Shown here: positions 3,005 through 40,176 of the stretch, in pieces
How the letters are laid out: the number at the start of each line of letters is the position of its first letter
Position numbering within the stretch: the stretch's first letter is position 1
Origin: Psychromonas ossibalaenae ATCC BAA-1528
Lineage (GTDB): Bacteria > Pseudomonadota > Gammaproteobacteria > Enterobacterales > Psychromonadaceae
DNA: 53,778 bases
Reading direction: 5' to 3'
Assembly: GCF_000381745.1 (NCBI RefSeq)
Contig: NZ_KB907002.1
Span: 1-53,778 of the forward strand
The notes under the pieces: model-generated
What the model was told of the DNA's origin: nothing
Databases searched by the model: none
Seen by the model: the letters and a program-made list of their open reading frames with translations, nothing else
Program-made: the position numbers and the translations under genes

Positions 3005-3076
3005 ATTGTTCCTTTAAACCCGTGTTATTCATTTCAGTGCTGATAAAACAACACAGTTTTTATGTAAAGCACCTCT

Positions 3077-3107
3077 AAAATTCCGGCAGCACCGCCGCCG
3101 AAATTTT
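3077..3107 (-). promoter_or_regulatory. Intercistronic RNA hairpin between pfaC and pfaD
   Basis: A 14-bp inverted repeat with a 3-base loop lies in the pfaC-pfaD gap (arms 3077-3090 and 3094-3107). Its two imperfect positions would be A-C mismatches in plus-strand RNA but become G-U pairs in the pfa transcript (minus strand), so the full stem forms only in the operon mRNA. It has only the UUUU of its own arm behind it, so it is more likely a processing, stability or partial attenuation element than a full terminator. This is an inference from pairing alone. Confidence 0.5.
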
Positions 3108-3114
3108 AAACATT

Positions 3115-8946: not shown

Positions 8947-8963
8947 AAATTCTCTCTGTATTT

Positions 8964-19641: not shown

Positions 19642-19654
19642 GTGATTACTCCAG

Positions 19655-20500
19655 TTATGACTTATCTGCATTTTCAGATGTTGTTAATCTGCTAGATTTT
19701 TTATCTAACAAGCGAAAACGGCTTAAAAATTCGTTGTAGTTTCTTACTAGTACACGGCGCACATGAAACGGCGCTTTTAACAGAACGTATCTGATATAGC
19801 GCTGAGCGGCCTGGTATTCATCATCGTCGTACAGGTCAACATATACCCAGCTGCTGTCCGGATCATGCGCCATTAAAATACGCTGTGGTTTAGTCTTATT
19901 TTTTGCAGCCGAAGCACTAGATGCGGGCAGTGTAATTAAATAAACCTGTACCACATCCAGACTGCTTAACTCGCAGTCCATATTCTCTGGTACAGCCTCA
20001 CCGCCCTGTTGAGCCAGCTGCAGACGCATCTGATTCAAAAAATCCGTCATTCCCTGCGGGGTGATCACCGTATTGAGTACTTCACTAGACAAGCTTTCCT
20101 CAATGGCAACCTGCACATAGGCATCACTGCTGCAGCTGTCATCAAAGGAATCCATATCTGCTAGCCGGGAAACGCCGTGGCGTTTAAGACAGCGCTGCAG
20201 GCCCGCACGCGAAACATCGGCATTAATAAACTCCCTGCACACAGCGAGTAATTCATCTAATGAAAGTTTTAAACGTATGCGCAGCTGTACAACTACATAC
20301 TGCTGTGCGGTGGTTAAGGTAGTATTTAACTGTTTGGGAATATGCGAACCGTCATCGGTACTCGCGCGTTTGCGCCACTTACGTACCGTTGATTCAGAGA
20401 CTTTCAGCAGCCGTGCTAATACTGCTGTTGCAAGATCAGATTCATGGATAAAAGCACGCATTTCTGGTGTGGTTGTTGCGTTTTTATGTTGTTTGGGCAT
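19655..20500 (-). CDS. pfaR: Pfa operon regulator PfaR
   Basis: 281 residues, placed just upstream of pfaA as in Shewanella, Photobacterium and related pfa loci, where PfaR is a positive regulator of the synthase genes. Residues about 10-45 form a helix-turn-helix (LATAVLARLLKVSESTVRKW). The next 75 residues (VQLRIRLKLSLDELLAVCREF, then ADVSRAGLQRCLKRHGVSRL) resemble the DNA-binding head of IS481-type transposases. The remaining C-terminal part has no recognisable catalytic motif. A transposase-derived DNA-binding domain recruited as a regulator is therefore a fair reading. The stop lies 13 bases before the preferred pfaA start, so the two are probably cotranscribed. The ribosome site is weak. 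Confidence 0.85.
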   Translation of the reverse strand: MPKQHKNATTTPEMRAFIHESDLATAVLARLLKVSESTVRKWRKRASTDDGSHIPKQLNTTLTTAQQYVVVQLRIRLKLSLDELLAVCREFINADVSRAGLQRCLKRHGVSRLADMDSFDDSCSSDAYVQVAIEESLSSEVLNTVITPQGMTDFLNQMRLQLAQQGGEAVPENMDCELSSLDVVQVYLITLPASSASAAKNKTKPQRILMAHDPDSSWVYVDLYDDDEYQAAQRYIRYVLLKAPFHVRRVLVRNYNEFLSRFRLLDKKSSRLTTSENADKS

Positions 20501-27007: not shown

Positions 27008-28333
27008 TTAAGCAAGTGCTAAATAAACAATAAACAAGGCGGCAAGGCAGTAGATAAGCGAATGAACTTCTTTACCTTTACCCTGAACTAACATAACAAA
27101 ACAGTAACTGATAAACCCCATAGCCATACCGTTAGCCGGCGAAAAGGTAAGCAGACTGAATACCATAATAAAAAATACCGGTACAGCAGACTCTTTTTTC
27201 TGCCACTGCACATTAGCCAGGTTTTTAATCATATAGATACCGATAATTACCAGCGCAGGTGACACAATCGCGGTAGTAAAAATAGAAAAAACCGGGAACA
27301 AAAAAGCAGATACAATAAATAAAGCGGCAACCGTTAATGCACTGATACCCGTTTTTGCGCCTAATGATGAGGCGACTGCAGATTCGGAATATGCGGTGAT
27401 GGAGGTAGTGCCTAGCAGCGTGCCGATAATAGTGCCTCCGGAATCAGCAACAAGTGCAGATTTTGCATTAGGTACTCTACCGTCCTTATCGATTATTCCC
27501 GCATCTTTACCAACCCCGACAATGGTGCTTAGACCGTCAAAGAAATCCACGATAAAAAATATAATAACCAGAAATATCAGATCGCTGATTTTAGGGATAC
27601 TCATATGTGAGAAATCAAAGGCGGCACCAAATGTCGGCGCTAAACTTGGCGGCATAGCAACAAGCTGACTGGGAAGAGAAATCAGATTGCTGCCGGTAAA
27701 CAGATCACTTAACAGGCTTAACACAATAGCGGCCAGAAAAGAGATAACCGTGGCTAATTTTATATCCCGCACCATACAGCCGACAGCAATAAAAATACTG
27801 ATTAAGGCGATAAATACCTTAGGGGAATAAACATCACCTAAACTGACTAAAATAACCGGGTCACTGACAATAATGCCCGCATTTTTCAGCCCTAGAAAGG
27901 AAACAAAAAGCCCTAAACCGACAGATATACCCAGCTTGAGATCTTCAGGAATAGCTTCAATAATAAGCTTTCTAGCCGGTGTTAAACTCAAAATCAGATA
28001 GATACAGCCCGACAGAAAAATAGCAAAAAGTGCTTCATGCCAAAGCAGAGATATACCGCCTCCGAGCAGTATTGCTTTAAAGAAGCCGTTCATTGACATA
28101 CCCGGCGCTAACATTATCGGATACTTGGCAAATGCCCCCATAATGAAGGTTGCCAGTGCCGCCGATACCGCAGTTGCAGTAAATATTGAACCTTTGTCTA
28201 TACCGTCAATACTGCCTAAAATAGCCGGATTAACGGCTAAGATATAACTCATCGCTAAAAAGGTAATTAACCCCGCGTACATTTCATTTTTTACAGTGGA
28301 GCCGCGCTCAGAAAGCAGGAAGTACTTGTCCAT
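27008..28333 (-). CDS. pbuG: Guanine/hypoxanthine permease, AzgA/PbuG type
   Basis: 441 residues, very hydrophobic, about 12-14 membrane segments. Family signs are the N-terminal STVKNEMYAGLITFLAMSYI, APGMSMNGFF in the position of the NCS2 substrate motif, and DFFDGLSTIVGVGKDAG followed by AVASSLGAKTG. This is the AzgA-like branch of NCS2 transporters (PbuG, PurP, GhxP), which import guanine, hypoxanthine or adenine with protons. The ATG has only a weak GGG ribosome site, which may itself be controlled by the upstream riboswitch. It forms an operon with xpt. Confidence 0.88.
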   Translation of the reverse strand: MDKYFLLSERGSTVKNEMYAGLITFLAMSYILAVNPAILGSIDGIDKGSIFTATAVSAALATFIMGAFAKYPIMLAPGMSMNGFFKAILLGGGISLLWHEALFAIFLSGCIYLILSLTPARKLIIEAIPEDLKLGISVGLGLFVSFLGLKNAGIIVSDPVILVSLGDVYSPKVFIALISIFIAVGCMVRDIKLATVISFLAAIVLSLLSDLFTGSNLISLPSQLVAMPPSLAPTFGAAFDFSHMSIPKISDLIFLVIIFFIVDFFDGLSTIVGVGKDAGIIDKDGRVPNAKSALVADSGGTIIGTLLGTTSITAYSESAVASSLGAKTGISALTVAALFIVSAFLFPVFSIFTTAIVSPALVIIGIYMIKNLANVQWQKKESAVPVFFIMVFSLLTFSPANGMAMGFISYCFVMLVQGKGKEVHSLIYCLAALFIVYLALA

Positions 28334-28549: not shown

Positions 28550-28698
28550 TTATTATTACTCTCGAATTACATGTCTGCTGAAAAACTGCGCATACGCCAC
28601 AGCGCACAAGGGCTGCAGCGCACTATACTCAAACGCCGATAAAGATAACCAATACATCACAGTCTTTACCATGCGCACTGAAGTTTCTTTTTTATCCT

Positions 28699-30459
28699 CT
28701 ATGGTTCAAGGCTGTTACGGTACTCAAACTGAGCCTGATACAGGGAAAGCGGCAGTACAGACTCGCCCATACTTTCCACAAAAGCCTGATCTGTTTCAGG
28801 GAGCATATCAACATATTGTGCCTTACCTAATTCATGCATGTTTTCAGCATAGGCCTTCTGCGTCGCATAAGTCATCGTATTACCTGTCATACCGATAATA
28901 TAGGGCATAATAATACGACCGTACTCGTTATTAATGCGCATAAATTCAAATCCGTTATTGTTACTGCTGCTGAGATTCTCAGGATTCCAGTAAACTAACC
29001 CCTGCAGATGATTAGGCTGATTGGCTAATGAAGCTCCCCAGCGCCCGTAAACAAAACCGCCGCTCATATTATCAAACAGATTGTACATCGACTGCTCGCC
29101 ATGCAGATCATTTCCAGAAGTTTCATCAAACTGCAGATTAAGGTAAACATTACCAATAGAGTATTTTGACACTCCCGGAGCATGCCATGTCGCGGCAGTA
29201 TCATCAACATTAACAGCTAAATCATTATTGCTGTACATCATGCCCAGTGCACTATGGCCGGGATTGCCGTTAAGCTGAATATTTTCAGCGGTAACATTAA
29301 AGGTATTTTTAAGGTTTACAGCCTGCGAAAAATCTTTAACTTCAATATTATTTATCCAGCTGTTATTGACGTTGCTCAGCTCAAGCATACTATAGCCGCT
29401 GTCATGTACAGCGTCCTCATGATGTATAAACTCATCCTGCCAGTTTCCCTGCAGGGTAAGATCTTCAATACCAATATTCGTTACGGAATTTATAACGCTG
29501 GCCGTCCAGCTATATTCCTCTGATATTTCATGATTCAAAGGCGCGGTAAATGTAATTCGATCCGCATCAATAGACTCAATAATATGTTTTTCAATCTGCA
29601 GTGTATTTTCCGTTAAATTAGTCCAGATATAATTTCCGGGCTCGTGAGGCTGATGTTCTAACAGATAGGGGCTGATCAGCGTATTAACAGCACTAATACT
29701 GTCGGTTACCCCTGTTAATTCAACACTGTCGCCGACCTTAAAACCGCTGCTGTCGGCCACTGTAATAGTAAAAGTAGAACCCCTTAAGTGGCTTGATGTG
29801 ATAGCAGAGCTAACCTCTGGTGTTTTATCTTTTGTTTCAGCACCAATACGAATCAAGTAAGGTGTTGTCCATTTTTTTTCAGGATCTTCAGGCAGCAGAT
29901 GAACATCTGAATAGAGAATAGTTTTACCGGGCCCGTCGCCTTTCATAATAAAATCACTAATACGGATAATAATCGGCTGTACCTGTAGAATATCTTCGCG
30001 ATCCTCGGGATCAATTTTGGCAATATCATGTGCATCATTAATAATGTAACGGCCTGACGGGAAATAAAGAATAGCTTTATGATCAGGGTCTAAAGCTTTC
30101 CGTTCCTCGATAAAATGGATAAGCTTTTTAAGCTTATCCTTACTGCTGACCGTACTGCCGGCTGTAATGCCGTAATCATTGACGTTATATTCAGTGTAGT
30201 CACTGCGGTCAATATCCTGGTAATGCTGCTCGCCGTTTTTATAACCGGCATAGGAAAAATCAGCCATCACCAGTGACGGATCAATCGACTGATCGCCGTT
30301 ATATAAACCGTTACTGTCTCGTGTATTTACATAATTAGTCCAGTAAATGGAGGTGTCTGCTTGCGATTTTACACTGACATCAGGTATATCAGCATAACTA
30401 CTGACAGCACCGAATATACAAAATGCAGTACACAAAGGATTTATATATTTTTTCATCAT
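28699..30459 (-). CDS. Secreted beta-helix protein, probable polysaccharide lyase
   Basis: 586 residues with a signal peptide (about 1-23, ending in SYA-D). The first third holds YFPSGRYIIN, then GDGPGKTILYSD, the usual entry of pectate-lyase-like right-handed beta-helices. After an inserted small beta domain (about 220-310), repeated short strands with Asn ladders follow (VTNIGIEDLTLQ, NSWINNIEVKDF, VTAENIQLNGN). No family-defining catalytic triad is evident to me. Context (GH88, sulfatase, symporter, porin) suggests cleavage of a sulfated uronic acid glycan by beta-elimination. It lies 159 bases after the symporter gene, with AAGGAG before tandem ATGs (30459 and 30456). Confidence 0.7.
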   Translation of the reverse strand: MMKKYINPLCTAFCIFGAVSSYADIPDVSVKSQADTSIYWTNYVNTRDSNGLYNGDQSIDPSLVMADFSYAGYKNGEQHYQDIDRSDYTEYNVNDYGITAGSTVSSKDKLKKLIHFIEERKALDPDHKAILYFPSGRYIINDAHDIAKIDPEDREDILQVQPIIIRISDFIMKGDGPGKTILYSDVHLLPEDPEKKWTTPYLIRIGAETKDKTPEVSSAITSSHLRGSTFTITVADSSGFKVGDSVELTGVTDSISAVNTLISPYLLEHQPHEPGNYIWTNLTENTLQIEKHIIESIDADRITFTAPLNHEISEEYSWTASVINSVTNIGIEDLTLQGNWQDEFIHHEDAVHDSGYSMLELSNVNNSWINNIEVKDFSQAVNLKNTFNVTAENIQLNGNPGHSALGMMYSNNDLAVNVDDTAATWHAPGVSKYSIGNVYLNLQFDETSGNDLHGEQSMYNLFDNMSGGFVYGRWGASLANQPNHLQGLVYWNPENLSSSNNNGFEFMRINNEYGRIIMPYIIGMTGNTMTYATQKAYAENMHELGKAQYVDMLPETDQAFVESMGESVLPLSLYQAQFEYRNSLEP

Positions 30460-30618
30460 TAACTCCTTACTCTATGACAGGTGCATTTACATAATCCTAT
30501 TTAAAGACTTATATAGATGCAGGCATTAAACGTTGAATTCTTTTATAAGAGTTGTGCAGGAATGGGGGCGGCGGTACAGCCCATTGCAATAAACCAGACT
30601 GTACCTGTTTCGAAGCTG

Positions 30619-32397
30619 CTAACGACTACTAGTTAACAGTTGGCCGCTTTTAGCCGAAACAATATTTTTATTATTTCCTGCCCGATAAATCATTGCACCG
30701 ATACCGAGAATGAAGAATCCGCAGATTAAGAAATAATATGACGATTCATTATCCGGCAGCAGGTAAAAAGCGGAAATAACTGCACCGAAAATCAGTGTTA
30801 AACGCCCGAGAATATTACACTGCATTACATCTGATTCATCCATTCCACTTTCTGACGTAATAGGTGTAACTTGATTTTTAAAAAATTTCTCAACGGCATG
30901 ATAACGTTCACCTACAGGTTTTTTATAAAACAACATTGTCGAAAAGAAAAATGCAACCGTTACAACTGCGTGCATAAACTGGGTAATAACAACCCCCAGG
31001 TCACCAATTTCACGCCCGCTAAAGGTGACATCAAGCGTTTGTGAAACCCAGTGAGCATTGAAAACGTTATTGCTGATAATACTGACCACAAAGCCAAACA
31101 CAACCGTTGCCCAGCCGGCCCAGTCAGGAGTACGTTTGATAAACATACCCAGTGTCTGAGGTATCATCATTGGGATATTTACTAAACCTGCAAATATAAT
31201 CATAATTGAAAACAGGCTGATTCCACGCAGTTCATTGAGAAACAATGCAAAGGCAATGACGATTAATCCCATAACACCCGTTGTTATCCTGCTGACCCGC
31301 AGTTCATCTTGTTCAGTAGCTTCTTTGTTGACCATTGGTTTATAGATCGACTTTACATATGAAGCCGTTACAAAGTTAATGCGCGAATCAAGGGTAGACA
31401 TAGTTGCGGCAAACATCGCTGAAACCACTAATCCGACCATACCGGCAGGTAATAACTCCTGCACAATCACTAGATAGGCGGCCTGATCGGCTTGCTCTCC
31501 CAGCTGCGGGTACATAGCGGCAAGATCCGGATATGCACCTGCTGCATACATAGGCGGCAGAAACCACATAATACTGCCGAAAGCAAATAGCCCAGCAGTA
31601 AAATAGGCTGCTTTTCTAGCATGCTGCGAATCTTTTACACAAAGAAAACGCACTGACTGACCGATATTATTCATATCAATAACACGCTGAATCAATATCG
31701 CTCCCACCCATAACAGGAAAATCTCCTGAAAATAGATGCCGTTACCAGTCCATAGGGCTGCACCCTGCCAGTGATCGGTGATTTCAGTGATCCCCGAAGT
31801 ATTATTAAGCACTGCAAGAAAGGTTACAACGCTAATACCAACTATCAAAAGCGCCTGCAGGAAGTCACTGGAAACAACAGCCCACGCTCCGCCGGCAATC
31901 GTCATCAATGCAACTGCACCACCAGTAATAATAATCGCGTAGGTAATATCCCAGCCTAAAACTGCAGAGATAAAAATTGAAACGGCATATAAAGTAATTG
32001 CACCGCCCATTAGACCTGTGATCATATAGATGACGGTATAAAAGCGTTCTGTTTTAGCACCGTAGCGCTGCCGTATTGCTTCCATCGGGGTAATAACATT
32101 CATCTGCCTGAAACGCGGCGCAAAAATGCGTGCACAGATGATGTAGCCGACAATATTAAAAACAAATATCCAGATGATTGCAAAGCCGTCAATATACGCT
32201 TTTCCAGCCGCTCCGGTAAATGTCCAGGCACTAAAAGTAGTCATAAACGCACTCGCGCCCCCCATCCACCAGAGCATTTTACCGCCCCCGCGAAAATAGT
32301 CACTGGTATTAGCTACCTGCTTACGGAACACCATGCCAAGAAGCACCATGAAAATAAAATAAAATACAATTGCACCAATATCATATGTAGAGACCAT
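30619..32397 (-). CDS. Sodium:solute symporter (SSS family)
   Basis: 592 residues with about 13-14 membrane segments. The SSS hallmarks are the N-terminal DYFRGGGKMLWWMGGASAF, then SAWTFTGAAGKAY, and the mid-protein segment MVGLVVSAMFAATMSTLDS, which carries the Na+-coordinating Ser/Thr residues. It starts 11 bases after the GH88 gene (ribosome site AAGGAA) and precedes the beta-helix gene, so the most probable cargo is the unsaturated, perhaps sulfated, oligosaccharide produced by that enzyme. Specificity cannot be read from the sequence. Confidence 0.9.
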   Translation of the reverse strand: MVSTYDIGAIVFYFIFMVLLGMVFRKQVANTSDYFRGGGKMLWWMGGASAFMTTFSAWTFTGAAGKAYIDGFAIIWIFVFNIVGYIICARIFAPRFRQMNVITPMEAIRQRYGAKTERFYTVIYMITGLMGGAITLYAVSIFISAVLGWDITYAIIITGGAVALMTIAGGAWAVVSSDFLQALLIVGISVVTFLAVLNNTSGITEITDHWQGAALWTGNGIYFQEIFLLWVGAILIQRVIDMNNIGQSVRFLCVKDSQHARKAAYFTAGLFAFGSIMWFLPPMYAAGAYPDLAAMYPQLGEQADQAAYLVIVQELLPAGMVGLVVSAMFAATMSTLDSRINFVTASYVKSIYKPMVNKEATEQDELRVSRITTGVMGLIVIAFALFLNELRGISLFSIMIIFAGLVNIPMMIPQTLGMFIKRTPDWAGWATVVFGFVVSIISNNVFNAHWVSQTLDVTFSGREIGDLGVVITQFMHAVVTVAFFFSTMLFYKKPVGERYHAVEKFFKNQVTPITSESGMDESDVMQCNILGRLTLIFGAVISAFYLLPDNESSYYFLICGFFILGIGAMIYRAGNNKNIVSAKSGQLLTSSR

Positions 32398-32408
32398 AAT
32401 ATAATTCC

Positions 32409-33560
32409 TTACCAGAAGTAACGCTGATGACCACAGATGCGCATTAACGCTTCCATGTAATAGTAATCTCCATACGGAAGTAGATTATCACTCATGCCTT
32501 TTGCAACAAAAGAAGCACCGTGATTCAACAGCCCTTTGGCATCAGGGTTATCGGTCAAGTCACACTGTTCCATTAATCCTTTCACTAAATGCATAGCCCA
32601 CTGCTCGTAAAAAACAGCTTCTTCTCCTTCACACAGACCGGCAATAAGCATAAAACCTGCAGCAGTAACAGCACCGGCTGAGCTGTCTTTATACTGCACT
32701 TGATCTTCAGGCAGTAGATAATCCCAAATAGGCACAGCATCCTGGTGCAGATGCTGCATTGCATATCTGGCTAAATTTTTTGCCAGTTCAAGAAACTTCT
32801 CATCCCCGCTGTAAATATAAGTCTGTGCAAAACCATGAATTGCCCATGCCTGGCCGCGTGCCCAGCAGGACTCATCAGCATAACCTTGAAATGTCTCCCC
32901 CCGCAGCGGTTTTTGTGTAACAGGATCAAAGTTATAAGTATGGTAGGTTGAGTAGTCATCACGCACAATATTTTCAGCCATTGTATGTGCATGAGCTAGC
33001 GCCGCATTACGCAGTACCGGAGAATGGTTCTGCTCTGATGCCCAGAAAAGCAGTGCTGTATTCTGCAGTGAATCAATAATAACTTTACCCTGCGTTTTCT
33101 CAGGCCCAAGAATATGCGTTTCATTCCACGCTACAATATACTTGCCGATACGACGAAAACGCATATATAAACTGTCAGCAGCCTGGATAGCCATCTGCTT
33201 ATATTCACTGTCTCCGGTAAGCTTGTAACCGGCAACACAGCTTAAAGAATACTGAAATCCGAGATCATGGTCGTGACAGTCCGGCATTTTCAGCAGTTCA
33301 TTGAAATACTCCTTACGAAACCCGGCACTATTTTTAAAACTTTCTTTGCCGCTCAGCTGATAGCATAACCACAACTGCCCGGTCCAGAAGGACGAGACCC
33401 AGTCTGAAGCCCCGCAGTATGTATATTGTAAATTCTCATCTCCTATTTTGGGATTATTAATACCAATTTTACTAATGTTACTTTCAGTAAAATTAACGAC
33501 CTTTTGCAGATGCTCTTCGAACTGACGCTTTTCATAATGGCGTGGCGGCAACTTATTCAT
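32409..33560 (-). CDS. GH88 unsaturated glucuronyl/glycan hydrolase
   Basis: 383 residues from the ATG at 33560 (GAGG upstream). A further in-frame TTG at 33635 adds 25 residues that look neither like a signal peptide nor conserved. Family motifs: ASDWVSSFWTGQLWL, HDLGFQYS with the conserved Asp, IDSLQNTALLFWAS, YADESCWARGQAWAIHGFA and DSSAGAVTAAG, ending in YGDYYYMEAL. GH88 enzymes hydrate the 4,5-double bond left by polysaccharide lyases and release 5-keto-uronate from chondroitin, hyaluronan, ulvan or similar disaccharides. The lack of a signal peptide places it in the cytoplasm, downstream of import. It is the first gene of the GH88-symporter-beta-helix unit and is divergent from the porin. 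Confidence 0.9.
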   Translation of the reverse strand: MNKLPPRHYEKRQFEEHLQKVVNFTESNISKIGINNPKIGDENLQYTYCGASDWVSSFWTGQLWLCYQLSGKESFKNSAGFRKEYFNELLKMPDCHDHDLGFQYSLSCVAGYKLTGDSEYKQMAIQAADSLYMRFRRIGKYIVAWNETHILGPEKTQGKVIIDSLQNTALLFWASEQNHSPVLRNAALAHAHTMAENIVRDDYSTYHTYNFDPVTQKPLRGETFQGYADESCWARGQAWAIHGFAQTYIYSGDEKFLELAKNLARYAMQHLHQDAVPIWDYLLPEDQVQYKDSSAGAVTAAGFMLIAGLCEGEEAVFYEQWAMHLVKGLMEQCDLTDNPDAKGLLNHGASFVAKGMSDNLLPYGDYYYMEALMRICGHQRYFW

Positions 33561-33970
33561 AACAGACAAATACCTCAATTGAAAAAAATAAAATATCGAA
33601 CTGGACGTTAACTGCAGATGATTATTTATCAGCAAATAGAGAGCTTAAATAATATCGCAGTCAGTTCAGTTGAAAACTTTTAAGCATTCTCAGCAATCAG
33701 CGGCTCTCTATCCATGATAAAAACACTCTACCAGATGAACAAAATGAAACTTAAAATATAAAAACAGTTTTTTTGTCAGATAACGTGACAGGTGTCTTCC
33801 TTTGTATAATAAAGATGGCTGCAGCGCTATTTTGCGGGGCAATGCACAATAAAAACAAACAAAGAAACTGACATTCATTTTGTACATCACGATTGTTTTT
33901 TTCTACATTCCCATGTTTTATTTAAACATTATGATGCCAGTCAAACTTAACCCAAGGAGTACTGTGTCAT
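33561..33970. other. Divergent control region between GH88 and porin genes
   Basis: A 410-base non-coding, AT-rich stretch between two oppositely transcribed genes of the same pathway. It should hold both promoters and the site of the pathway regulator. A short minus frame (33708-33890) is not supported by a ribosome site. I found no clear dyad, so no operator is named. Confidence 0.5.
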
Positions 33971-35206
33971 ATGTCAAGTTCAAAACTACCCTTTTATTTT
34001 GCCGCGCTTCCATTACTAGTTTCTGGTAACACTGTATTCGCATCGACTGTCGATTTCTCCGGTTATATGCGGGCAGGTACAGGATCCAGTCAAAACAGCG
34101 GGGCTATGGTTTCCTATGAAAAGCAAAAAGTGGGACGCTTAGGCAACGAAGATGATATCTATACGGCATTAGGGGCTGGAACAGAGCTGTATAATAGTGC
34201 TGAGCAGTCAGTATACTTACAAACACGCTTTATTTATCAATCAGACGGAGCGAATGACTGGGAGTCGATATCGAATGAAGATACCAACTTTATGATTAAG
34301 GAGCTGAATGTCGCGGTTAAAGGTATATTTCCTTCTTTACCAGAAGCAACTGCATGGATAGGTAAACGCTACAATCAGCGCCATGATAACCATATTATTG
34401 ACACATACTTCTGGAATGTTTCCGGTACCGGACTGGGAATTGACTATATACCGCTAGGTTCAGGTCTACTGTCAACCTCGGCCATTCGCTCTGACCGCGC
34501 AGCCGTCGCTGATGACGGAACAAGCAATGGAAATCTGAACGTTAATATATTTGATATTCGTTATAAAGCAGGTTTATGGAACAATGCGGTTTTTGAAGTA
34601 GGCCTGGACTACGCGATGCCTAACGAATCCAGTGACTTTACCGGATCGGTAGAAAGTGGTCAGTTAATCACCGGTTTATTAACTCATAAATTTTCATGGG
34701 GAAGTAATAGCGGTGTTTTTCAGTATGGAACAAACGGTTTTTCGGAAGCCTTGTTTAACGACCATGCAGGGAAAAGCTATTATGCTGAAGCAGAAAGTGA
34801 TTCTTCAGCTTACCGTATAATGAACTTCGGCCTGGTGAATATATCTGAACAATTTAAAGTGGCTCATTCAGTGTATTACACCTCTTCAATAAACGAAATT
34901 ACAGCAGGTCAACATGATGATAAAACAACCTTTTCTATCGTTGCCCGACCTCAATTTAACTGGGATACACAAAATAAAACCATGGTAGAATTAGGGTATT
35001 TTGATCAAACCGATGGACATAATATCGATTCATCCGGATCTAAAGTCACACTTGCACAAGCCTGGTCTCCAGCCGGCGGCTTCTGGTCCCGCCCTGAGCT
35101 GCGCCTTTTTGTGAGTTATCTCAATGATCAGGGAGATCAAGACAGATTCGGCACAGGTAAAAACTCAGAAGTTAATGTGGGCGCACAGGTTGAAGCCTGG
35201 TGGTAA
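33971..35206 (+). CDS. LamB-like carbohydrate porin
   Basis: 411 residues with a signal peptide (about 1-24, ending in VFA-S). LamB family signs are the start of the mature protein (VDFSGYMRAGTG), the GRLGNEDD stretch, ATAWIGKRYNQRHDNHIID followed by YFWNVSGTGLGIDY, and the C-terminal aromatic residue (EAWW) needed for barrel insertion. It forms an outer-membrane channel for oligosaccharides. The ribosome site AAGGAG lies 11 bases upstream of the ATG. Its position opposite GH88 and before the AraC gene suggests uptake of the glycan fragments handled by this locus rather than maltodextrin. Confidence 0.87.
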   Translation: MSSSKLPFYFAALPLLVSGNTVFASTVDFSGYMRAGTGSSQNSGAMVSYEKQKVGRLGNEDDIYTALGAGTELYNSAEQSVYLQTRFIYQSDGANDWESISNEDTNFMIKELNVAVKGIFPSLPEATAWIGKRYNQRHDNHIIDTYFWNVSGTGLGIDYIPLGSGLLSTSAIRSDRAAVADDGTSNGNLNVNIFDIRYKAGLWNNAVFEVGLDYAMPNESSDFTGSVESGQLITGLLTHKFSWGSNSGVFQYGTNGFSEALFNDHAGKSYYAEAESDSSAYRIMNFGLVNISEQFKVAHSVYYTSSINEITAGQHDDKTTFSIVARPQFNWDTQNKTMVELGYFDQTDGHNIDSSGSKVTLAQAWSPAGGFWSRPELRLFVSYLNDQGDQDRFGTGKNSEVNVGAQVEAWW

Positions 35207-35227
35207 TAGAAGTCAGCTGATACAAGA

Positions 35228-35318
35228 AATATTAATCAGGGCGTCTGCCGACAGTAAAGCACCGTTCCTGATTAATGTTATCACGGCAATGTTTTTCCAT
35301 TTCTTGCAGATCGGCAGA
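35228..35318 (+). promoter_or_regulatory. Nested inverted repeats between porin and araC-type gene
   Basis: ATTAATCAGG (35231-35240) and CCTGATTAAT (35267-35276) form a perfect 10-bp stem, extendable by a G-U and two A-U pairs. Inside its loop TCTGCCGA (35244-35251) is complementary to TCGGCAGA further downstream (35311-35318), so a loop-tail pseudoknot or an alternative fold is possible. It may be the 3' end of the porin mRNA or a leader control element for the regulator gene. Confidence 0.4.
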
Positions 35319-35383
35319 TATTAAAGTAATTTGTTAAACGGCGTTTTTTCTATTCAGCTGTTTTATAAGAGGATCACATCATC

Positions 35384-36223
35384 ATGAAAAATGCACCTCT
35401 GTTAATTAATAGGGCCATCGAATCCTGCGGTATAACGTTACGCGCTATGTGGGATATTTACGCAGACAAACACTATTCAATAAACTGGCCTAAAGACAGA
35501 AAAATTCCCATGGTTAAAAATGCCGTAGTAGCTGTCTATACTATTCAAGGCAGCGGCAGTATTGAATTAAAAAATGGAAAAAAACTCATATTATCAGGTC
35601 CGAGCATTATTTTTCTGGACTGCCAGCAGATCAAAAGATATAAAACCAACGGCTTATTCTGGGAATTAAACTGGTTTGAATTTATGACCAACGGAGTTGC
35701 ACATATCCCTTTTGAACAGCAGATTTTCTTAACCACTGAGCAGTATCCGCAGATTCTTAATGAAATTAAAGAATTCATTAGATCTGAAGATGAAATCAAA
35801 AGAAATACCGCTGTTGCAGGTTTCGGATACCTGTTTTATAAATGGATAAGCCTCAGTAAAGAAAACCAGTCCATGAGCAGTCAGGAAAAAATTGTTTCCG
35901 ATGTGCTTGCCATTATGAGCACACGTATCGGCGAAAACTGCAAAGTAACAGACTTTGCCCAGGAGTCTGGTTACACGCAGCAGTACTTAAGAAAACTATT
36001 TCTGAAGCATGTACACCTCACACCAAAACAGTATTACTCCAAGCTGAAAATGGATGCCAGCCTGTCAATGCTCACTAAAAGAGGATACAGCGTAAAGCGT
36101 ACTGCTTATGAACTGGGGTTCAACGACAGCTTTCATTTCAGTAGAACATTTAAAAGCCGTTTCGGCACCTGTCCATCGCAGATAGAAAAAGACGGTACAG
36201 CAGAGCCGAAAAGTGACGTTTAA
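35384..36223 (+). CDS. AraC-family transcriptional regulator
   Basis: 279 residues. The N-terminal 160 residues are a cupin-type sugar-sensing domain (VYTIQGSGSIELKNGKKLILSGPS). The C-terminal 100 residues carry two helix-turn-helix motifs: VTDFAQESGYTQQYLRKLF, and VKRTAYELGFNDSFHFSRTFK with the AraC signature FG-x-CPSQ at the end. It lies between the porin and the maturase/sulfatase block, so the likely role is to activate both arms of the locus when the glycan-derived inducer is present. E. coli has an AraC-type gene (yidL) near the related yid block. Confidence 0.88.
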   Translation: MKNAPLLINRAIESCGITLRAMWDIYADKHYSINWPKDRKIPMVKNAVVAVYTIQGSGSIELKNGKKLILSGPSIIFLDCQQIKRYKTNGLFWELNWFEFMTNGVAHIPFEQQIFLTTEQYPQILNEIKEFIRSEDEIKRNTAVAGFGYLFYKWISLSKENQSMSSQEKIVSDVLAIMSTRIGENCKVTDFAQESGYTQQYLRKLFLKHVHLTPKQYYSKLKMDASLSMLTKRGYSVKRTAYELGFNDSFHFSRTFKSRFGTCPSQIEKDGTAEPKSDV

Positions 36224-36252
36224 CACGTCCGTTTTGAAGTTTACAACAACGG

Positions 36253-37476
36253 TTATTCTCGTTGTACAGTCATGTTCATTAATTCAGCAGGCGAAATTCC
36301 CCGGTTAATTAAATTTCTCATTAACTTCATATAAGGTGCACTGCGGGTGAAAAATATCTTATAACCCTCACAGAAATAATTATGATTTTTCTGTCCACTG
36401 GATGAGGCTATAAAACGATGTTTAGGACATCCTCCATGGCACACCTTAAGAAAAGGACAAAAATGACAGTCAGTCGATAAATTAAGCTTTTTATCATTTG
36501 CAAACTGCTTTGCCCGTTCACTATTATTGATTGTAATTATTTTTGTCTCATTGATATTACCGAGCTTATGTTCTGGATAAACGTAATGATCACAATTATA
36601 AATATCGCCATTTGCTTCAAGAGCAAAAGCATGTCCGCAGCGTTCACTAAAAGAACACATCTGAGCAGGATAGCCGCACCAGACACCTAATAGCGAATCA
36701 AAAAGCTGTATAAATACCCGGCCTATATCCTTTTCAACCCAGGCAGTAAAAACATCAGCGAGAAACTGTCCGTAAGCTTTTGCTTCAACGGACCAGGATG
36801 TCACATAACTTAGCGGCTGAAAACCGGGGCTAATCAGACGAAGCTCATGACTTGGTGCATTCCTGTTTTCTCTTTCAATAAGCGGGATAAACTGAATATG
36901 TGCTGTTCCCAGCGATTTTAAGTAGTTGTATACCTTTTGCGGATGTTTAACATTATGATTATTAATAACTGCCAGTATATTAAATTCTATCTGATAATAT
37001 TTAAGCAGGGTGACAGCTTTTATCACCTTCTGGTGTGAGCCTTTACCACTGCGGTTGACGCGGTAAATATCATGGAGCTCCATTGGACCGTCAATAGATA
37101 TGCCGATCAGCCAGTTATTTTCTTTAAAAAACTGACACCATAAATCATCAATAATTATACCGTTGGTCTGCAGGTTATTGTGAATTTGTTTCCTGCCGGC
37201 ATATTTTTTCTGTAGTTCGACAGCCTTCTTATAAAAGGCTAACCCTGCCAGTGTTGGTTCACCTCCCTGCCAGGCAAACTCAACAACATCAGCAGACTGC
37301 GCCTCGATATGCTGACGAATGTAATTTTCCAGTGTGTACTGATCCATAAACTGCTTCGAAGATTCGCGATATAGCTTATGTTTTTCTAAATAGAAACAAT
37401 AGGTACAGTTTAAATTACAGGTAGAGCCAGTTGGCTTTGCCATCACATGACAGCCGTTTTTAATATCATTATTCAT
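36253..37476 (-). CDS. yidF: Anaerobic sulfatase-maturating enzyme (radical SAM)
   Basis: 407 residues. The radical SAM cluster motif is C20-x3-C24-x2-C27 (CNLNCTYC). The conserved WQGGEPTL and QTNGI follow. A C-terminal SPASM-type domain has the Cys set CSFSERCGHAFALEANGDIYNC, DCHFCPFLKVCHGGCPKH, which binds two auxiliary Fe-S clusters. The enzyme oxidises the active-site Cys of type I sulfatases to formylglycine without oxygen and acts in the cytoplasm. Its start follows directly on the yidG-type stop (TAGATG). The partner sulfatase, with a CTPAR motif, is in the same transcription direction upstream. Closely resembles E. coli YidF and Clostridium/Bacteroides anSMEs. Confidence 0.9.
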   Translation of the reverse strand: MNNDIKNGCHVMAKPTGSTCNLNCTYCFYLEKHKLYRESSKQFMDQYTLENYIRQHIEAQSADVVEFAWQGGEPTLAGLAFYKKAVELQKKYAGRKQIHNNLQTNGIIIDDLWCQFFKENNWLIGISIDGPMELHDIYRVNRSGKGSHQKVIKAVTLLKYYQIEFNILAVINNHNVKHPQKVYNYLKSLGTAHIQFIPLIERENRNAPSHELRLISPGFQPLSYVTSWSVEAKAYGQFLADVFTAWVEKDIGRVFIQLFDSLLGVWCGYPAQMCSFSERCGHAFALEANGDIYNCDHYVYPEHKLGNINETKIITINNSERAKQFANDKKLNLSTDCHFCPFLKVCHGGCPKHRFIASSSGQKNHNYFCEGYKIFFTRSAPYMKLMRNLINRGISPAELMNMTVQRE

Positions 37477-37830
37477 CTATAAACTTACTAATTGGAAAAT
37501 CCTGCTGACTTTAATACCGGCATAAACAAGTGCACTCAACACAATAGAAAAACTGAGCAGGCTTTTAGTTGTCACCGAGCAGCCGCTGCTCAGCTTATTT
37601 TTTATATCCATAAGGCGACGCTTACAGGCATACACATAAACGGTAATATTACTAAACAGTAAAGCGGCGGCCGCGCAGCTTAAGGCATAGCTGTTATTGT
37701 AAAAAGCAGCTCTGAAAAGTACGACAGCCACTATGATCACAACAAAAAATGTCCGAAACCAGGAAAGCGACGTTCTTTCCGGCTGCAGCCCCGGATCATC
37801 AATACGTCTCGCAGTACGGCTAGCCGGCAT
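37477..37830 (-). CDS. yidG: DUF202 inner-membrane protein, YidG-like
   Basis: 117 residues with three predicted membrane segments. The N-terminal cytoplasmic head (RRIDDPGLQPERTSLSWFRT) is nearly the same as in E. coli YidG, as I recall it. It overlaps the yidH-type stop by 11 bases and abuts the maturase start, so the three are translationally coupled. DUF202 proteins have no assigned biochemical function. Pairing two different DUF202 proteins between a sulfatase and its maturase suggests a heteromeric membrane partner, for example in export, retention or transport of sulfate or substrate (inference). Confidence 0.85.
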   Translation of the reverse strand: MPASRTARRIDDPGLQPERTSLSWFRTFFVVIIVAVVLFRAAFYNNSYALSCAAAALLFSNITVYVYACKRRLMDIKNKLSSGCSVTTKSLLSFSIVLSALVYAGIKVSRIFQLVSL

Positions 37831-38167
37831 AGGTAATAAACAACATAATTACAACGGCAGTAATAACCATAAACAGACTAATTACTCTAAGAAAACCAGT
37901 ATATGGCAAGTCGGTTTTATAGCGCATCGCTTTCTCATTCGCAGCCCAGCGCATATAAGCATACAAGGCTACGACTGCAGCAAATATACACAAGGTAAGA
38001 GAAATAATTTCGCCAGCAGCCGGCCCGGCCAAATGCGGCGCTAACTGATCCAGCCCGATGGCGGCGGCTAAAAATGCCAGTGCCGTTCTAATCCAGGCAA
38101 GAAAGGTCCGTTCATTTGCTAATGAAAATCTGTAATCAGGTGATTCACCTTCATGGATCCATTTCAT
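37820..38167 (-). CDS. yidH: DUF202 inner-membrane protein, YidH-like
   Basis: 115 residues from the ATG at 38167, which has AGGA 6-7 bases upstream. The open frame continues to 38200 but the extra 11 residues lack support, and 115 is the length of E. coli YidH as I recall it. The DUF202 head SPDYRFSLANERTFLAWIRTA and the segment NEKAMRYKTDLPYT match YidH closely. Three membrane segments are predicted. It sits 102 bases after the sulfatase and overlaps the YidG-like gene. Function unknown. Confidence 0.88.
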   Translation of the reverse strand: MKWIHEGESPDYRFSLANERTFLAWIRTALAFLAAAIGLDQLAPHLAGPAAGEIISLTLCIFAAVVALYAYMRWAANEKAMRYKTDLPYTGFLRVISLFMVITAVVIMLFITYAG

Positions 38168-38269
38168 ATATTTCCTCAATTGTGCAATACTCCGCCGCAT
38201 CGGCGGTGCTCTATAATAATTATCAGCGCCAAAACAGCAGCCGCCTGTATACCTGCAGGTAAGAACGCA

Positions 38270-39778
38270 TTAAAACTTCTGCAGTTTCTGCTCAATTTTA
38301 GTGCCTTTAGTCGGCATTCCCGTATCATAGTCACGCACCACTGCAGAATAACCATCATCCGGACGCGGCCGAAAAGCCCCCATCCAGCGTGGCATTATTT
38401 CCTTTCTCCAGGAACGACTTGCCCATTGATAACTTCTGAACGGATCGCGTATATGATCCATATAATCTAATAATCGATCATGCATATTATTGCGTATCTG
38501 CGCATGCTGCCGCGATGTAATAAGATTGTTCATCTCATCAGGATCATTATGACGGTCGTACAGTTCATCGCTGCTGAACAGATTGATGACTAATTTATAG
38601 CGATTCTCTATCCAGCAGCGTACCGGAATAAAGCCGCCGAAACTATCATGCTCAATTTCATAACGATTAAATTCCACCATAATACCCCGCTCACTGTGCT
38701 GCTGGTCATCAATAGTCAGCAGATCACCGCCGGGCAGCATCTCCGGTTGTTCAATCTCTGCTAATTTCATTAATGTCGGCAGAATATCAATATGACTGAC
38801 CGGAGAATTAATCTGAGAGTGCTGCTGCGCTTCTTCAGGCGGGCGGACAATCAACGGAATCTTAGTAATGTCATCATACATAGCGGCACCTTTACTGATC
38901 AGCTTATGCGCCCCCATCATTTCACCGTGATCAGAAGTATAAACAACCCAGGTGTTTTCGATTTCTGACTGATCCAGATTATCAATTACACGGCCTATTT
39001 CATCATCAACAAAATCGTTGCAGCCGAAATATAAAGGATGACGATACAAACCGTCATCACCCACGGGACTAGGCATCGCTTCTGCCCATAACCTATGGTG
39101 CTCAGGTTTATTTTCCAAGGTATCAAATGCTTTCTCGCCCAGGTCATAGCTGAAATCTTTAAAACGTTCGATATATTCAACGGGGCAGGTAAACGGATGG
39201 TGAGGCTCGTCATAGGAAAGCACTAACAGGAAAGGTTTATCATTTTCAGTCTGATCTAGATAACGGACAGCCCGGTTGCTTATCCTGTGCGCCCAGGTAA
39301 ATTCTTTACCTATATCATTTTCCAATAACTCTTCAACACTGTTAAGTCCATTGCGCCACAAAGCAATTTCCTGCTCGCTAAGCTCCGCTAAATAGTTGGC
39401 ACCGTCATACCAGTACTCTGAATTCCATTCATCGGGACACTCGCCTGTCCCATAATAATCATGACCGTCAAGGTGCCACTTTCCGATATAACAGGTCTGA
39501 TATCCGGCATCTTTAAAATAACGCCCCATTGATGAAATATTTTTACCCGGGGCTACATTATTTGTCCACGGCCCGGACTGATTAGCATAAATGCCTGTAA
39601 ATAATCCCGCGCGTGCAGGAGTACAAACTGGAGAGCAAGTATAGGCAGAATTGAACTGAATTCCCTTTGACGCTAACTTATCAATATTATTTGTATTAAG
39701 CGCCCTGCCGCTGTAACAGCCCACCATATTGGTCGCTTGCGTATCAGTCATGATTAAAATGATATTTGGTTTTGTCAT
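38270..39778 (-). CDS. yidJ: Type I (Cys) sulfatase, YidJ-like
   Basis: 502 residues of the alkaline phosphatase/sulfatase fold. The N-terminal ILIMTDTQATNMVGCY supplies metal ligands. C52-T-P-A-R56 is the formylglycine motif C-x-P-x-R, continuing AGLFTG. GKWHLDGHDYYG and YTSDHGEMMGAHKLISKG give further active-site residues. No signal peptide is present, so it should act in the cytoplasm on imported sulfated sugars, in keeping with the linked anaerobic-type maturase. Length and order match E. coli YidJ. Substrate is unknown; the GH88 neighbour points to a sulfated unsaturated disaccharide. The ribosome site CAGGTG precedes the ATG. Confidence 0.9.
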   Translation of the reverse strand: MTKPNIILIMTDTQATNMVGCYSGRALNTNNIDKLASKGIQFNSAYTCSPVCTPARAGLFTGIYANQSGPWTNNVAPGKNISSMGRYFKDAGYQTCYIGKWHLDGHDYYGTGECPDEWNSEYWYDGANYLAELSEQEIALWRNGLNSVEELLENDIGKEFTWAHRISNRAVRYLDQTENDKPFLLVLSYDEPHHPFTCPVEYIERFKDFSYDLGEKAFDTLENKPEHHRLWAEAMPSPVGDDGLYRHPLYFGCNDFVDDEIGRVIDNLDQSEIENTWVVYTSDHGEMMGAHKLISKGAAMYDDITKIPLIVRPPEEAQQHSQINSPVSHIDILPTLMKLAEIEQPEMLPGGDLLTIDDQQHSERGIMVEFNRYEIEHDSFGGFIPVRCWIENRYKLVINLFSSDELYDRHNDPDEMNNLITSRQHAQIRNNMHDRLLDYMDHIRDPFRSYQWASRSWRKEIMPRWMGAFRPRPDDGYSAVVRDYDTGMPTKGTKIEQKLQKF

Positions 39779-40176
39779 GATTACACCTGGATTGATTTAA
39801 CTAAGTCGTTTGATAAAATGCTTTCCATCCGCGCAGTCTCTGAGAAATGGTGCCTGCGCCCGATCGAAGGTATGCTTTATTATTAATGAGTCTATTTTTT
39901 ACTTTTTAAGCGCTTAATTGAATAGAATAAAATACATATAACATGAATAAAATGAACCTGGATATAAGTTACTGGTTTGATAATCTGCAGGACAGCTTAC
40001 GGGAAGAGAAATACGCATGACGGCACTGCTGATAGGAGTCCTGTAAGTCAGGAAAGCACTAAACAACGGGCCTGAATGTGAATAACGTTTGAATGTTAAT
40101 CATGTGTAGAAAAATGGATGAAATCGCGACATTCATTGTAACAAACATAAATGAGTAGAACATTTCGGTTCTGCTG
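39779..40176. other. Intergenic region with a palindrome upstream of the sulfatase operon
   Basis: 398 bases without a gene, between the HAD gene stop and the sulfatase start. TTAAGCGCTTAA (39906-39917) is a perfect 12-bp palindrome about 130 bases before the sulfatase ATG and may be an operator. A weak hairpin (40154-40175, one mismatch) lies just after the HAD stop and may end that transcript. Nothing else was recognised. Confidence 0.4.

Follow-up and report, generated by a model that had tools for sequence, protein, structure and literature searches.

A two-operon locus of Psychromonas ossibalaenae that probably serves to import sulfated polysaccharide fragments and to desulfate them inside the cell

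The window analyzed here, a stretch of 53,778 nucleotides from Psychromonas ossibalaenae, carries a cluster of nine genes, and family profile matches place all nine where the first-pass annotation had put them. Leftmost, and on the minus strand, are a PL29-like (DUF4955) protein of predicted right-handed beta-helix fold that has a signal-like stretch at its N terminus and is probably an endo-lyase (28699..30459), an SSS-family sodium:solute symporter (30619..32397; PF00474, 153 bits), and a GH88 unsaturated glucuronyl hydrolase (32409..33560) with no evident signal. On the plus strand there follow a LamB-family porin (33971..35206; PF02264, 303 bits) and an AraC-family regulator (35384..36223). 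The remaining four genes again lie on the minus strand: an anaerobic sulfatase maturase of the radical SAM, SPASM type (36253..37476), a YidG-type DUF202 membrane protein (37477..37830; PF02656, 42 bits), a YidH-type DUF202 membrane protein related to Vtc1 (37820..38200; PF02656, 68.5 bits), and a YidJ-type S1 sulfatase, also with no evident signal (38270..39778; PF00884, 226 bits). Two candidate AraC-family operators, here called boxes, are found on the plus strand: one 5' of the GH88 gene in its divergent gap with the porin gene (33735..33750), the other 5' of the sulfatase operon (39943..39958).

The sulfatase has a formylglycine site of the CxPxR type (CTPAR, at residue 52) and the maturase exceeds the TIGR03942 cut-off (513 bits against 349), so that this is an S1 formylglycine sulfatase accompanied by its cognate maturase; the nearest sulfatase of solved structure is 9ihk, S1_30A. 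Its sequence opens on the catalytic core at residue 4, and the start of the GH88 protein, the ATG at 33560, agrees in alignment with those of its close homologues. The earlier proposal that desulfation is cytoplasmic is supported. The GH88 assignment itself (PF07470, 38 bits, cut-off 26.6) is strengthened by structure matches that are unsaturated glucuronyl hydrolases (1vd5, E 7e-72; 3wux, E 1e-62); the window protein is closest to those of the glycosaminoglycan type and falls next to unsaturated chondroitin disaccharide hydrolase. The Asp of HDLGF and the Asp of IIDSL align to UGL with both catalytic Asp kept; we take them to be its D88 and D149, and for the first this is borne out by a D88N-type sequence, 2ahf, among the structure matches. 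The symporter, which is 78-80% identical to those of five other loci (L009, L010, L016, L097, and L115) and has as its nearest solved structure a putative sodium:solute symporter (5nv9, E 7e-27), probably imports a sulfated unsaturated disaccharide, and the porin matches maltoporins whose structures are solved (E about 1e-40).

What had been described simply as a beta-helix enzyme is indeed encoded at the left end of the locus, but that description had missed its kinship with a characterized lyase, BT3328. The DUF4955 domain is well above the Pfam cut-off (PF16315, 97 bits against 25) and the protein matches the NCBIfam model BT_3328_fam (E 3e-92). Because its 310 bits do not reach the equivalog cut-off of 1100, we file it as PL29-like, a distant relative, and do not give it the status of a BT3328 equivalog; this shortfall is itself a point against the reading favored below. 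The AlphaFold model (pLDDT 91) retrieved beta-helix tailspikes and lyases with Foldseek, all at TM < 0.4, and a sequence search found no relative of solved structure. Since this protein is a relative of BT3328, if a distant one, the locus appears to have its own lyase. BT3328 (PL29) is reported to act on chondroitin sulfates and hyaluronan (PMC6994673). A DUF4955-GH88 fusion protein exists (P0006), and in the flanking DNA examined a GH88 match occurs at 12 of 42 DUF4955 loci and a sulfatase match at 16 of them; the lyase type is found in 6 of 72,556 plasmid records, all at less than 60% identity. As judged from its family, the protein is probably an endo-lyase, which may cleave a glycosaminoglycan by beta-elimination.

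The reading that we favor, and hold to be probable, is that the two operons together serve the utilization of a sulfated glycan containing uronic acid, with a glycosaminoglycan, for instance chondroitin sulfate, as the likeliest candidate. The substrate could also be a different polymer of uronate, whether alginate, ulvan, or a marine sulfated glycan not yet described, with the logic of import and desulfation unchanged. In Verruconatronum, alginate is reported to induce two genes of PL29 and one for an SSF transporter, and this bacterium did not grow on chondroitin sulfate or hyaluronan (PMC13274419); the presence of PL29 and SSF genes is thus no proof of glycosaminoglycan use. Pontiella, Akkermansia, and other lineages also have DUF4955 genes next to sulfatases, and one locus (L156) combines an SSS symporter, a sulfatase, a DUF202 pair, and a maturase with rhamnose genes. 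However, the window locus has no rhamnose genes, its GH88 is nearest to the glycosaminoglycan type, and on alginate the sulfatase and maturase would be idle, all of which makes a different polymer unlikely, if still a serious competitor.

Comparison with related bacteria bears on the same question. Counterpart clusters occur in Vibrio mediterranei, V. harveyi, V. jasicida, and a further genome (G409), and partial ones in P. sanctipauli and Endozoicomonas ascidiicola. Those of Vibrio unite the lyase, symporter, GH88, porin, AraC regulator, and maturase with kduI, kduD, kdgK, and kdgA and a signal-less sulfatase, and the run of genes in V. harveyi encodes a short-chain dehydrogenase of KduD type along with KduI, KdgA, and a kinase of the PfkB family. 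The original suggestion of a sulfated uronate glycan is sustained by this V. harveyi run, together with the PL29-like lyase of the locus and the likeness of its GH88 to unsaturated glucuronyl hydrolases. Two features of these comparisons tell against the favored reading: the sulfatase of the Vibrio loci is a different one, 28% identical to that of the window, and the window locus has no KduI gene, the single KduI of the host genome lying on contig C26. A cluster described as serving oligogalacturonide use, with EDA4, in V. parahaemolyticus, V. harveyi, and V. jasicida (PMC6537148) is very probably the same as our loci L010 and L113; it holds kduI, kduD, kdgK, an aldolase, an SSS symporter, an AraC regulator, and a porin, the likeness being judged from the gene list. 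The description consulted assigns the cluster to pectin and does not name the lyase, sulfatase, and maturase. A pectin locus in the window is nonetheless very improbable: the use of pectin calls for no sulfatase, no maturase, and no lyase of the BT3328 type, and the GH88 belongs with the glucuronyl enzymes.

Two known routes of glycosaminoglycan use resemble the window locus in part. The PUL-CS/DS/HA of Bacteroides thetaiotaomicron (PMC6994673) likewise brings together a PL29-type lyase (BT3328), GH88 (BT3348), and S1 sulfatases; however, as that source describes it, import is by SusC/D and GH88 and sulfatases are periplasmic, whereas the window has a LamB-family porin, an SSS symporter, a signal-less GH88 and sulfatase, a maturase, and the DUF202 pair. 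The hyaluronan locus of V. alginolyticus LWW-9, as reported, shares with it a cytoplasmic GH88 that acts after import of unsaturated disaccharides but employs PL8 lyases and PTS import (PMC8222515). The host Psychromonas, with two PL8 lyase genes and genes suggesting galactosamine use, which count in favor of the reading preferred here, seems to have a second route of the PL8 and PTS type, on contigs C26 and C78. In 23 other Psychromonas genomes the lyase type and the sulfatase type each occur once, in different genomes and never together, an observation that is itself unfavorable to the favored reading; in a class-level survey of 369 genomes, whose sample had only three others of the order and which therefore carries little weight, GH88 and sulfatase were each found once, in the window itself.

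The locus had been proposed to supply a metabolic context for the yid block of Escherichia coli, with which it was said to share the order yidJ-yidH-yidG-yidF. The order is indeed shared with K-12 (YidJ 74%, YidH 61%, YidG 35% identity), but YidF is a remnant: it has 165 residues in all three strains viewed (K-12, O157, and SC418), and because the K-12 protein aligns only to maturase residues 170-283 and 349-402, it is, on this alignment, without the N-terminal radical-SAM part. The E. coli block (yidL-yidK-yidJ-(yidI)-yidH-yidG-yidF) also includes two genes that the first-pass annotation did not mention, one for an SSS symporter, YidK (25% identical to that of the window), and one for a regulator of the AraC family, YidL (40.5%); genes for GH88, a porin, or a DUF4955 protein are absent from the 19 kb viewed. 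The proposed context is not supported. A YidJ-type sulfatase occurs in 6 of 394 genomes of the order with GH88 adjacent in the window only, and in stretches of about 20 kb around the five other loci there is no GH88 match, yidK- and yidL-type genes being found instead; from this we conclude that the substrate of E. coli YidJ is more likely something imported ready-made. Outside these five loci the GH88 link does recur, so it is not unique to this genome: E. ascidiicola (L014) has a 67% identical YidJ-type sulfatase, an SSS symporter, GH88, and a DUF4955 protein together.

These results also bear on whether a yid-type sulfatase operon and an unrelated uronate-glycan operon are merely chance neighbors, as the five YidJ loci lacking GH88 and the use of another sulfatase in Vibrio could suggest. 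The E. ascidiicola grouping speaks against this, and so do the regulatory features. The window has no gene of the yidK or yidL type beside yidJ; its regulator shares 52-60% identity with its counterparts in Vibrio, G409, and Photobacterium (57-60% with those of Vibrio) and is nearer to the Vibrio proteins than to YidL. The 16-base box, which was noticed by eye in an alignment of GH88 upstream regions and then tested by pattern and by matrix, is present in two copies, one 5' of each leftward operon, and these two score best in the window; the pattern was composed with knowledge of the window sites, and the matrix was built without them. The upstream regions contain no long conserved block when aligned. 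The box recurs in Vibrio, in Photobacterium, and at E. coli yidL (a match of 16.0 within the sulfatase start of E. ascidiicola was left out of the count), and the yidK-yidL promoter stretch of E. coli was found in 5055 of 5426 genomes. Chance proximity is accordingly rather improbable, and the regulator family with its box may provide a narrower link between the locus and the yid block.

We know of no function for DUF202 in bacteria. The YidH-type protein, whose homologues begin at the Met of its residue 12, is related to Vtc1 (phmmer E 6e-4), and its first 11 PDB matches with Foldseek are all VTC chains (best E 0.005); the search with the YidG type found no VTC chain. Its R31 is aligned to R31 of Vtc1, R24 comes opposite K24 only via an ungapped extension past the reported alignment, and both are invariant in an alignment of 15 YidH types. 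The yeast VTC polyphosphate channel, as described (PMC9911596), has the DUF202 fold and, apparently, basic residues at the pore-lining positions K24 and R31 in common with the YidH type, but the pair has neither polymerase nor SPX part and consists of two short paralogues in sulfatase operons. Signal-less sulfatases adjoin 10 of 23 DUF202 pairs, and the pair could export sulfate. It might equally act to anchor or assemble the sulfatase at the membrane without any transport, which we consider plausible but somewhat short of probable: a literature search found no sulfate transport by YidH or YidG, and YidH emerged from a screen for D-alanine export, yet intracellular D-alanine is reported as not lowered (PMC10299036), whereas the fold of three helices and the apparent agreement with Vtc1 in the basic residues that line the pore speak against mere anchoring. 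In five cases the pair is still present with yidJ gone, which fits poorly with anchoring and counts against sulfate export as well. Two candidate patterns were rejected: apparent sulfatase-DUF202 fusions (P0067 and P0071), in which YidJ runs through an intergenic-like stretch into a YidH with its own start, were judged strain-level read-throughs, and replacement of the pair by TauE gave no rule (L014 and L115 have TauE without a DUF202 match in the stretch; L097, L156, and L161 have both).

In the pathway that we favor for the window, the exported PL29-like lyase would cleave the polymer by beta-elimination, the porin would pass the unsaturated oligosaccharides, and the symporter, with sodium as the presumed coupling ion, would import the sulfated unsaturated disaccharide. 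In the cytoplasm GH88 would free the unsaturated uronate, destined for the KduI/KduD/KdgK/KdgA path, and a hexosamine perhaps still sulfated, from which the sulfatase, activated by the adjacent maturase, would then take off the sulfate. At the inner membrane, the DUF202 pair would handle the oxyanion set free, either exporting it or serving as an anchor for the sulfatase, and the AraC regulator would govern both operons, and presumably their induction, through the common box. What the sequences show is the membership in families, the absence of an evident signal on sulfatase and GH88, the grouping of the genes in relatives, the box, and the kinship of DUF202 with Vtc1; the substrate, the sequence of cleavage and desulfation, the coupling ion, the induction, and any transport by DUF202 are inferred. 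A broader and distinctly tentative idea is that bacteria possess a portable module for cytoplasmic desulfation, composed of a signal-less sulfatase, its maturase, and YidH/YidG as a Vtc1-like sulfate-export channel, and served by varying importers (SSS for glycosaminoglycan fragments, YidK-type SSS, SSS with rhamnose genes, or PTS); E. coli yidLKJHG would be a module of this kind, acting on a sulfated monosaccharide that enters via YidK, with a YidL operator that is that of the glycosaminoglycan loci.

On the evidence of its genes, then, this locus probably has an animal-type sulfated polysaccharide cut outside the cell, its sulfated fragments imported, and the sulfate stripped inside. If this is true, SSS-based import with intracellular desulfation would join the PTS- and Sus-type routes of glycosaminoglycan use, the pectin label of the Vibrio cluster would probably be corrected, a role would be proposed for DUF202, and the E. 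coli yid locus would be given a regulator site and a substrate class. Since the two loci share their sulfatase, two small membrane proteins, and what is probably a control site, the role of each is testable.

The nine genes that the first-pass annotation had listed between positions 28699 and 39778 are all present, and the locus is real. Two leftward operons make up most of it: one on the reverse strand from 39778 to 36253, with the sulfatase, a YidH-type and a YidG-type DUF202 protein and the maturase, and one on the same strand from 33560 to 28699, with GH88, the SSS symporter and a DUF4955 protein. Between them lie the LamB porin and AraC genes (33971-36223, forward strand). A HAD-family gene adjoins the locus on its right side; on its left is a gene that by eye is permease-like (27008-28333), preceded by a purine riboswitch (RF00167, 28420-28521, reverse strand; 74 bits, gathering threshold 37). 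The window also carries an integron integrase near its start (326-1327, forward strand; TIGR02249, 451 bits, cut-off 265) and polyunsaturated fatty acid synthase genes (1409-19671, reverse strand; PfaD and PfaB via NCBIfam), including a 1943-residue ketoacyl synthase/FabA protein and a 2758-residue frame that is PfaA-like by size and position. The frame behind this last gene (19655-20500, reverse strand) matches the IS481 transposase weakly (77 bits, cut-off 224) and is more likely a regulator or a degenerate relative than such a transposase. The genome itself comprises 5.2 Mb in 107 contigs. Among 24 genomes of the family, the window's own included, the lyase type occurs in two and the sulfatase type in two, the second genome not being the same one.

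The gene first described as a beta-helix enzyme is there, and its identity can be recast: it encodes a distant relative of the hyaluronan endo-lyase BT3328, probably the polysaccharide lyase that the first-pass annotation had lacked. Residues 62-581 match the NCBIfam family BT_3328_fam (E 3e-92) at 310 bits with a cut-off of 1100; judged by sequence, the protein is PL29-like, without certified membership of that family. BT3328 is the founding PL29 enzyme, with chondroitin sulfates and hyaluronan as substrates in the accessible portions of the literature (PMC6994673, PMC9067506, PMC12877422). The AlphaFold model is confident (pLDDT 91) and has many short strands; Foldseek places tailspikes and lyases of beta-helix type first among its PDB matches, with TM <0.4, and a sequence search against PDB chains gave no match. 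In a single genome scan that yielded 42 DUF4955 loci, 12 had a GH88 match, 16 a sulfatase match and 24 either or both, counted on the available flanks, which are unequal in length and lie in part on short contigs. A single sequence, P0006, fuses GH88 and DUF4955 in one chain; its N-terminus looks exported, whereas that of the window GH88 does not.

The nearest known structures to the window GH88 are unsaturated glucuronyl hydrolases, including an unsaturated chondroitin disaccharide hydrolase. Against the Pfam model it scores 37 bits, versus 275 and 240 for the two further GH88-domain genes of the genome, one of which is on contig C26. The insertion NETHILGPEKTQ, or a near-identical one, is common to the GH88 proteins of the window, Vibrio mediterranei (L009), V. 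harveyi (L010), genome G409 (L097) and Endozoicomonas ascidiicola (L014), and is missing in the remaining three of the alignment. Identity of the symporter is 78-80% in L009, L010, V. jasicida (L016), L097 and Photobacterium sanctipauli (L115), 61% in L014 and 25% to YidK. Another GH88 system, seen in four genomes of the order (L099-L102), joins a GH88 (37-40%) to a DUF2264 protein and a gene that by eye is MFS-transporter-like.

The window's genome holds a second GAG-type set of PL8 lyases, PTS, GH88, KduI and galactosamine-type genes. On contig C78 (stretch L057) two PL8 lyase genes are accompanied by sulfatases and by genes of maturase and KdgK type. C26 (stretch L055) contributes GH88, KduI, a gene of KduD type, a NagA-type amidohydrolase, a KbaZ-like gene, a SIS-domain protein and a subunit of a sorbose-family PTS; on these contigs, maturase, KdgK and KduD were labelled by eye and similarity. 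Since these genes resemble the V. alginolyticus hyaluronan locus of PL8/GH88/PTS type, as outlined in the accessible part of PMC8222515, the window locus would be a second route. The earlier proposal of a sulfated uronate glycan as substrate is supported, and within that group the putative substrate class is most likely glycosaminoglycan.

Counterparts of the locus are found in several other bacteria. The V. mediterranei stretch (about 11 kb) carries a DUF202 pair, another sulfatase (28%), AraC, SSS, GH88, LamB, maturase and lyase. The V. harveyi stretches (L113 and L010) run from a DUF202 pair, sulfatase, AraC, a DJ-1 family gene, KdgA and a PfkB kinase (KdgK type) to a KduD-type dehydrogenase, KduI, SSS, GH88, LamB, maturase and lyase. 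The V. jasicida stretch L016 comprises the end of AraC, SSS, GH88, LamB, maturase and lyase, with a sulfatase directly upstream, and that of G409 has lyase, TauE, sulfatase, AraC, DJ-1, KdgA, KdgK, KduI, SSS, GH88, maturase and a DUF202 pair, neither porin nor KduD being found in it. TauE, sulfatase, AraC, SSS and GH88 share one contig in P. sanctipauli, the lyase lying on a separate one. E. ascidiicola joins maturase, TauE, a YidJ-type sulfatase (67%), SSS, GH88 and lyase, together with a second sulfatase with a signal, a KduD-type dehydrogenase and KduI. There are hints, short of proof, of further linkage between lyase P0015 and the YidJ-type P0103, for both of which the longest contig measures 565008, and between lyase P0003 and the YidH-type P0172, where this length is 32208. 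For V. parahaemolyticus, V. harveyi and V. jasicida, the accessible part of PMC6537148 labels a cluster of the same gene content as an oligogalacturonide cluster; going by the gene list, we think that it is the same locus. The accessible parts of a few papers on chondroitin sulfate in Vibrio, unsaturated glucuronyl hydrolase and the symporter yielded no SSS route for GAG fragments.

The order of genes in E. coli K-12 is yidL, yidK, yidJ, yidI, yidH, yidG, yidF, and identity to the window proteins is 74% for YidJ, 61% for YidH, 40.5% for YidL, 35% for YidG and 25% for YidK. Although yidF is sometimes named a sulfatase maturase, the K-12 gene (positions 2115-2612 of stretch L050, reverse strand) retains the C-terminal part of a maturase only: its 165 residues align solely with maturase residues 170-283 and 349-402, and YidF is likewise 165 residues long in O157 and SC418. 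Distant blastn with the full-length maturase gene of L093 found nothing in the E. coli collection. Six of 394 genomes of the order carry a YidJ type, and 21 a GH88 of the window type (down to E 1e-60); both are present in four (G000, G494, G591, G706), and only in the window are the two genes close together, the distance in G494 being about 161 kb. At all five remaining YidJ loci, genes of yidK and yidL type are neighbors; four of the five have a full-length maturase, and none has a GH88 or DUF4955 match in its stretch of about 20 kb. The neighborhood survey for GH88 that the first-pass annotation had suggested thus goes against it within this order; the link is nevertheless not unique, as Endozoicomonas has it. 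In one yid-type locus (L092, Psychromonas G385), a second sulfatase (27%) and a second YidK-type symporter lie directly behind the DUF202 pair. The accessible parts of PMC7716201, PMC3027627 and PMC10299036 assign no substrate to yidJ or its neighbors, and that of PMC8464067 lists YidL among the candidates of a ChIP-exo study, without a target given.

Of 295 genomes of the order, 25 carry the DUF202 family; in the window's genome its only two matches lie inside the window. We counted 23 YidH/YidG-type pairs, one (G533) with its partner recognized by eye, not counting the single genes of G475 and G443 or the weak matches of G624 and G660. Ten of the pairs share their locus with a sulfatase (the window, L092-L095, L097, L147, L152, L156, L158), at a distance of about 8.5 kb in L097. 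With seven sulfatase-domain hits per 5.2 Mb, the density in the window's genome, the chance of at least 10 of 23 is 5e-11, and with 20 hits it is 9e-7, kinship among genomes being ignored in both. Could the pair then be bound to the sulfatase alone? Against this stand five pairs located at a yid-type site, or close to one, where yidJ and yidK are absent (L146, L148-L151), six at other places (L153, L155, L157, L159, L160, L162), and the signal-less-type sulfatase loci L014 and L115, which have TauE and no DUF202 match. In two further loci (L154, L161) the pair accompanies a maturase, and a sulfatase was not found. The pairs of L153 and L155, directly beside genes that by eye are cydAB-like and with no sulfatase match, represent another association of the family.

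The 13 inspected sulfatases at DUF202 loci start at the catalytic core or after a short polar stretch (L097, L147 and L158 judged by eye; the called protein of L095 has 20 extra residues ahead of an internal Met). Five other inspected sulfatases of the window's genome have signal-like N-termini, a seventh sulfatase-domain hit, on C11, lying outside this set. Importers at the DUF202-sulfatase loci vary: the YidK type, the SSS of the GAG loci, PTS (L147, L158) and an SSS with RhaA and rhaM (L156). In this last locus (genome G482), SSS, a signal-less sulfatase, a DUF202 pair, maturase and TauE adjoin RhaA, rhaM and a class II aldolase, a set that would suit a system for importing a sulfated rhamnose and desulfating it in the cytoplasm.

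In a single-sequence search the YidH type matches Vtc1 (E 6e-4) and the YidG type does not. The YidH-type model has three helices (pLDDT 79), and in a PDB structure search VTC chains are its first eleven matches (best E 0.005; TM 0.50-0.58 for Vtc1 chains). According to the accessible part of PMC9911596, the VTC channel is lined by basic residues of TM1, including Vtc1 K24 and R31, the latter at its narrowest point. Vtc1 R31 is aligned to R31 of the window YidH type, the full-length chain index being taken as the residue number, and K24 falls opposite R24 only by an ungapped extension past the reported alignment; R24 and R31 are invariant across 15 aligned YidH types. From this likeness in sequence and model we propose that the DUF202 pair may be a putative sulfate exporter.

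A 16-base candidate operator provides a further tie between the two kinds of locus. Sites resembling ATGWANAAAANGAAMC, sought as ATGAANAAAANGAAMC with at most one mismatch, are found at two positions of the window only, 33735 and 39943, each upstream of one of the leftward operons; the mean over 100 shuffles was 0.09 sites, and no shuffle reached two. A matrix built on four site sequences from Vibrio and G409, the window excluded, ranks these sites at the top (19.0 and 17.8), the maximal best and second scores in 60 shuffles being 17.7 and 15.1. Outside the matrix set, P. sanctipauli has two boxes (23.7 and 23.3), ahead of AraC/sulfatase and of GH88; a single box is present at the AraC start in both V. 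harveyi L113 and V. jasicida L114, and the best match in six of six yid loci (E. coli K-12 and five others) lies at the 5' end of yidL. There it falls within the first codons of the annotated gene, so that constraint on the encoded protein may be part of why it is conserved. The measured boxes lie 85-193 bases upstream of GH88, sulfatase, LamB or yidK starts. Also counting against the box are a score of 18.5 at another kind of position in L150, which is without an AraC match, a third window site at 28683 (16.0), and the lack of a good site in E. ascidiicola (L014). On these sequence comparisons the box is likely an operator common to the GAG and yid loci.

The context first proposed for the E. 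coli yid block is accordingly narrower than envisaged: among the 394 genomes of the order, GH88 stands beside YidJ in the window only, and what E. coli would have in common with the glycan locus is a desulfation module and, likely, the site of a common regulator.
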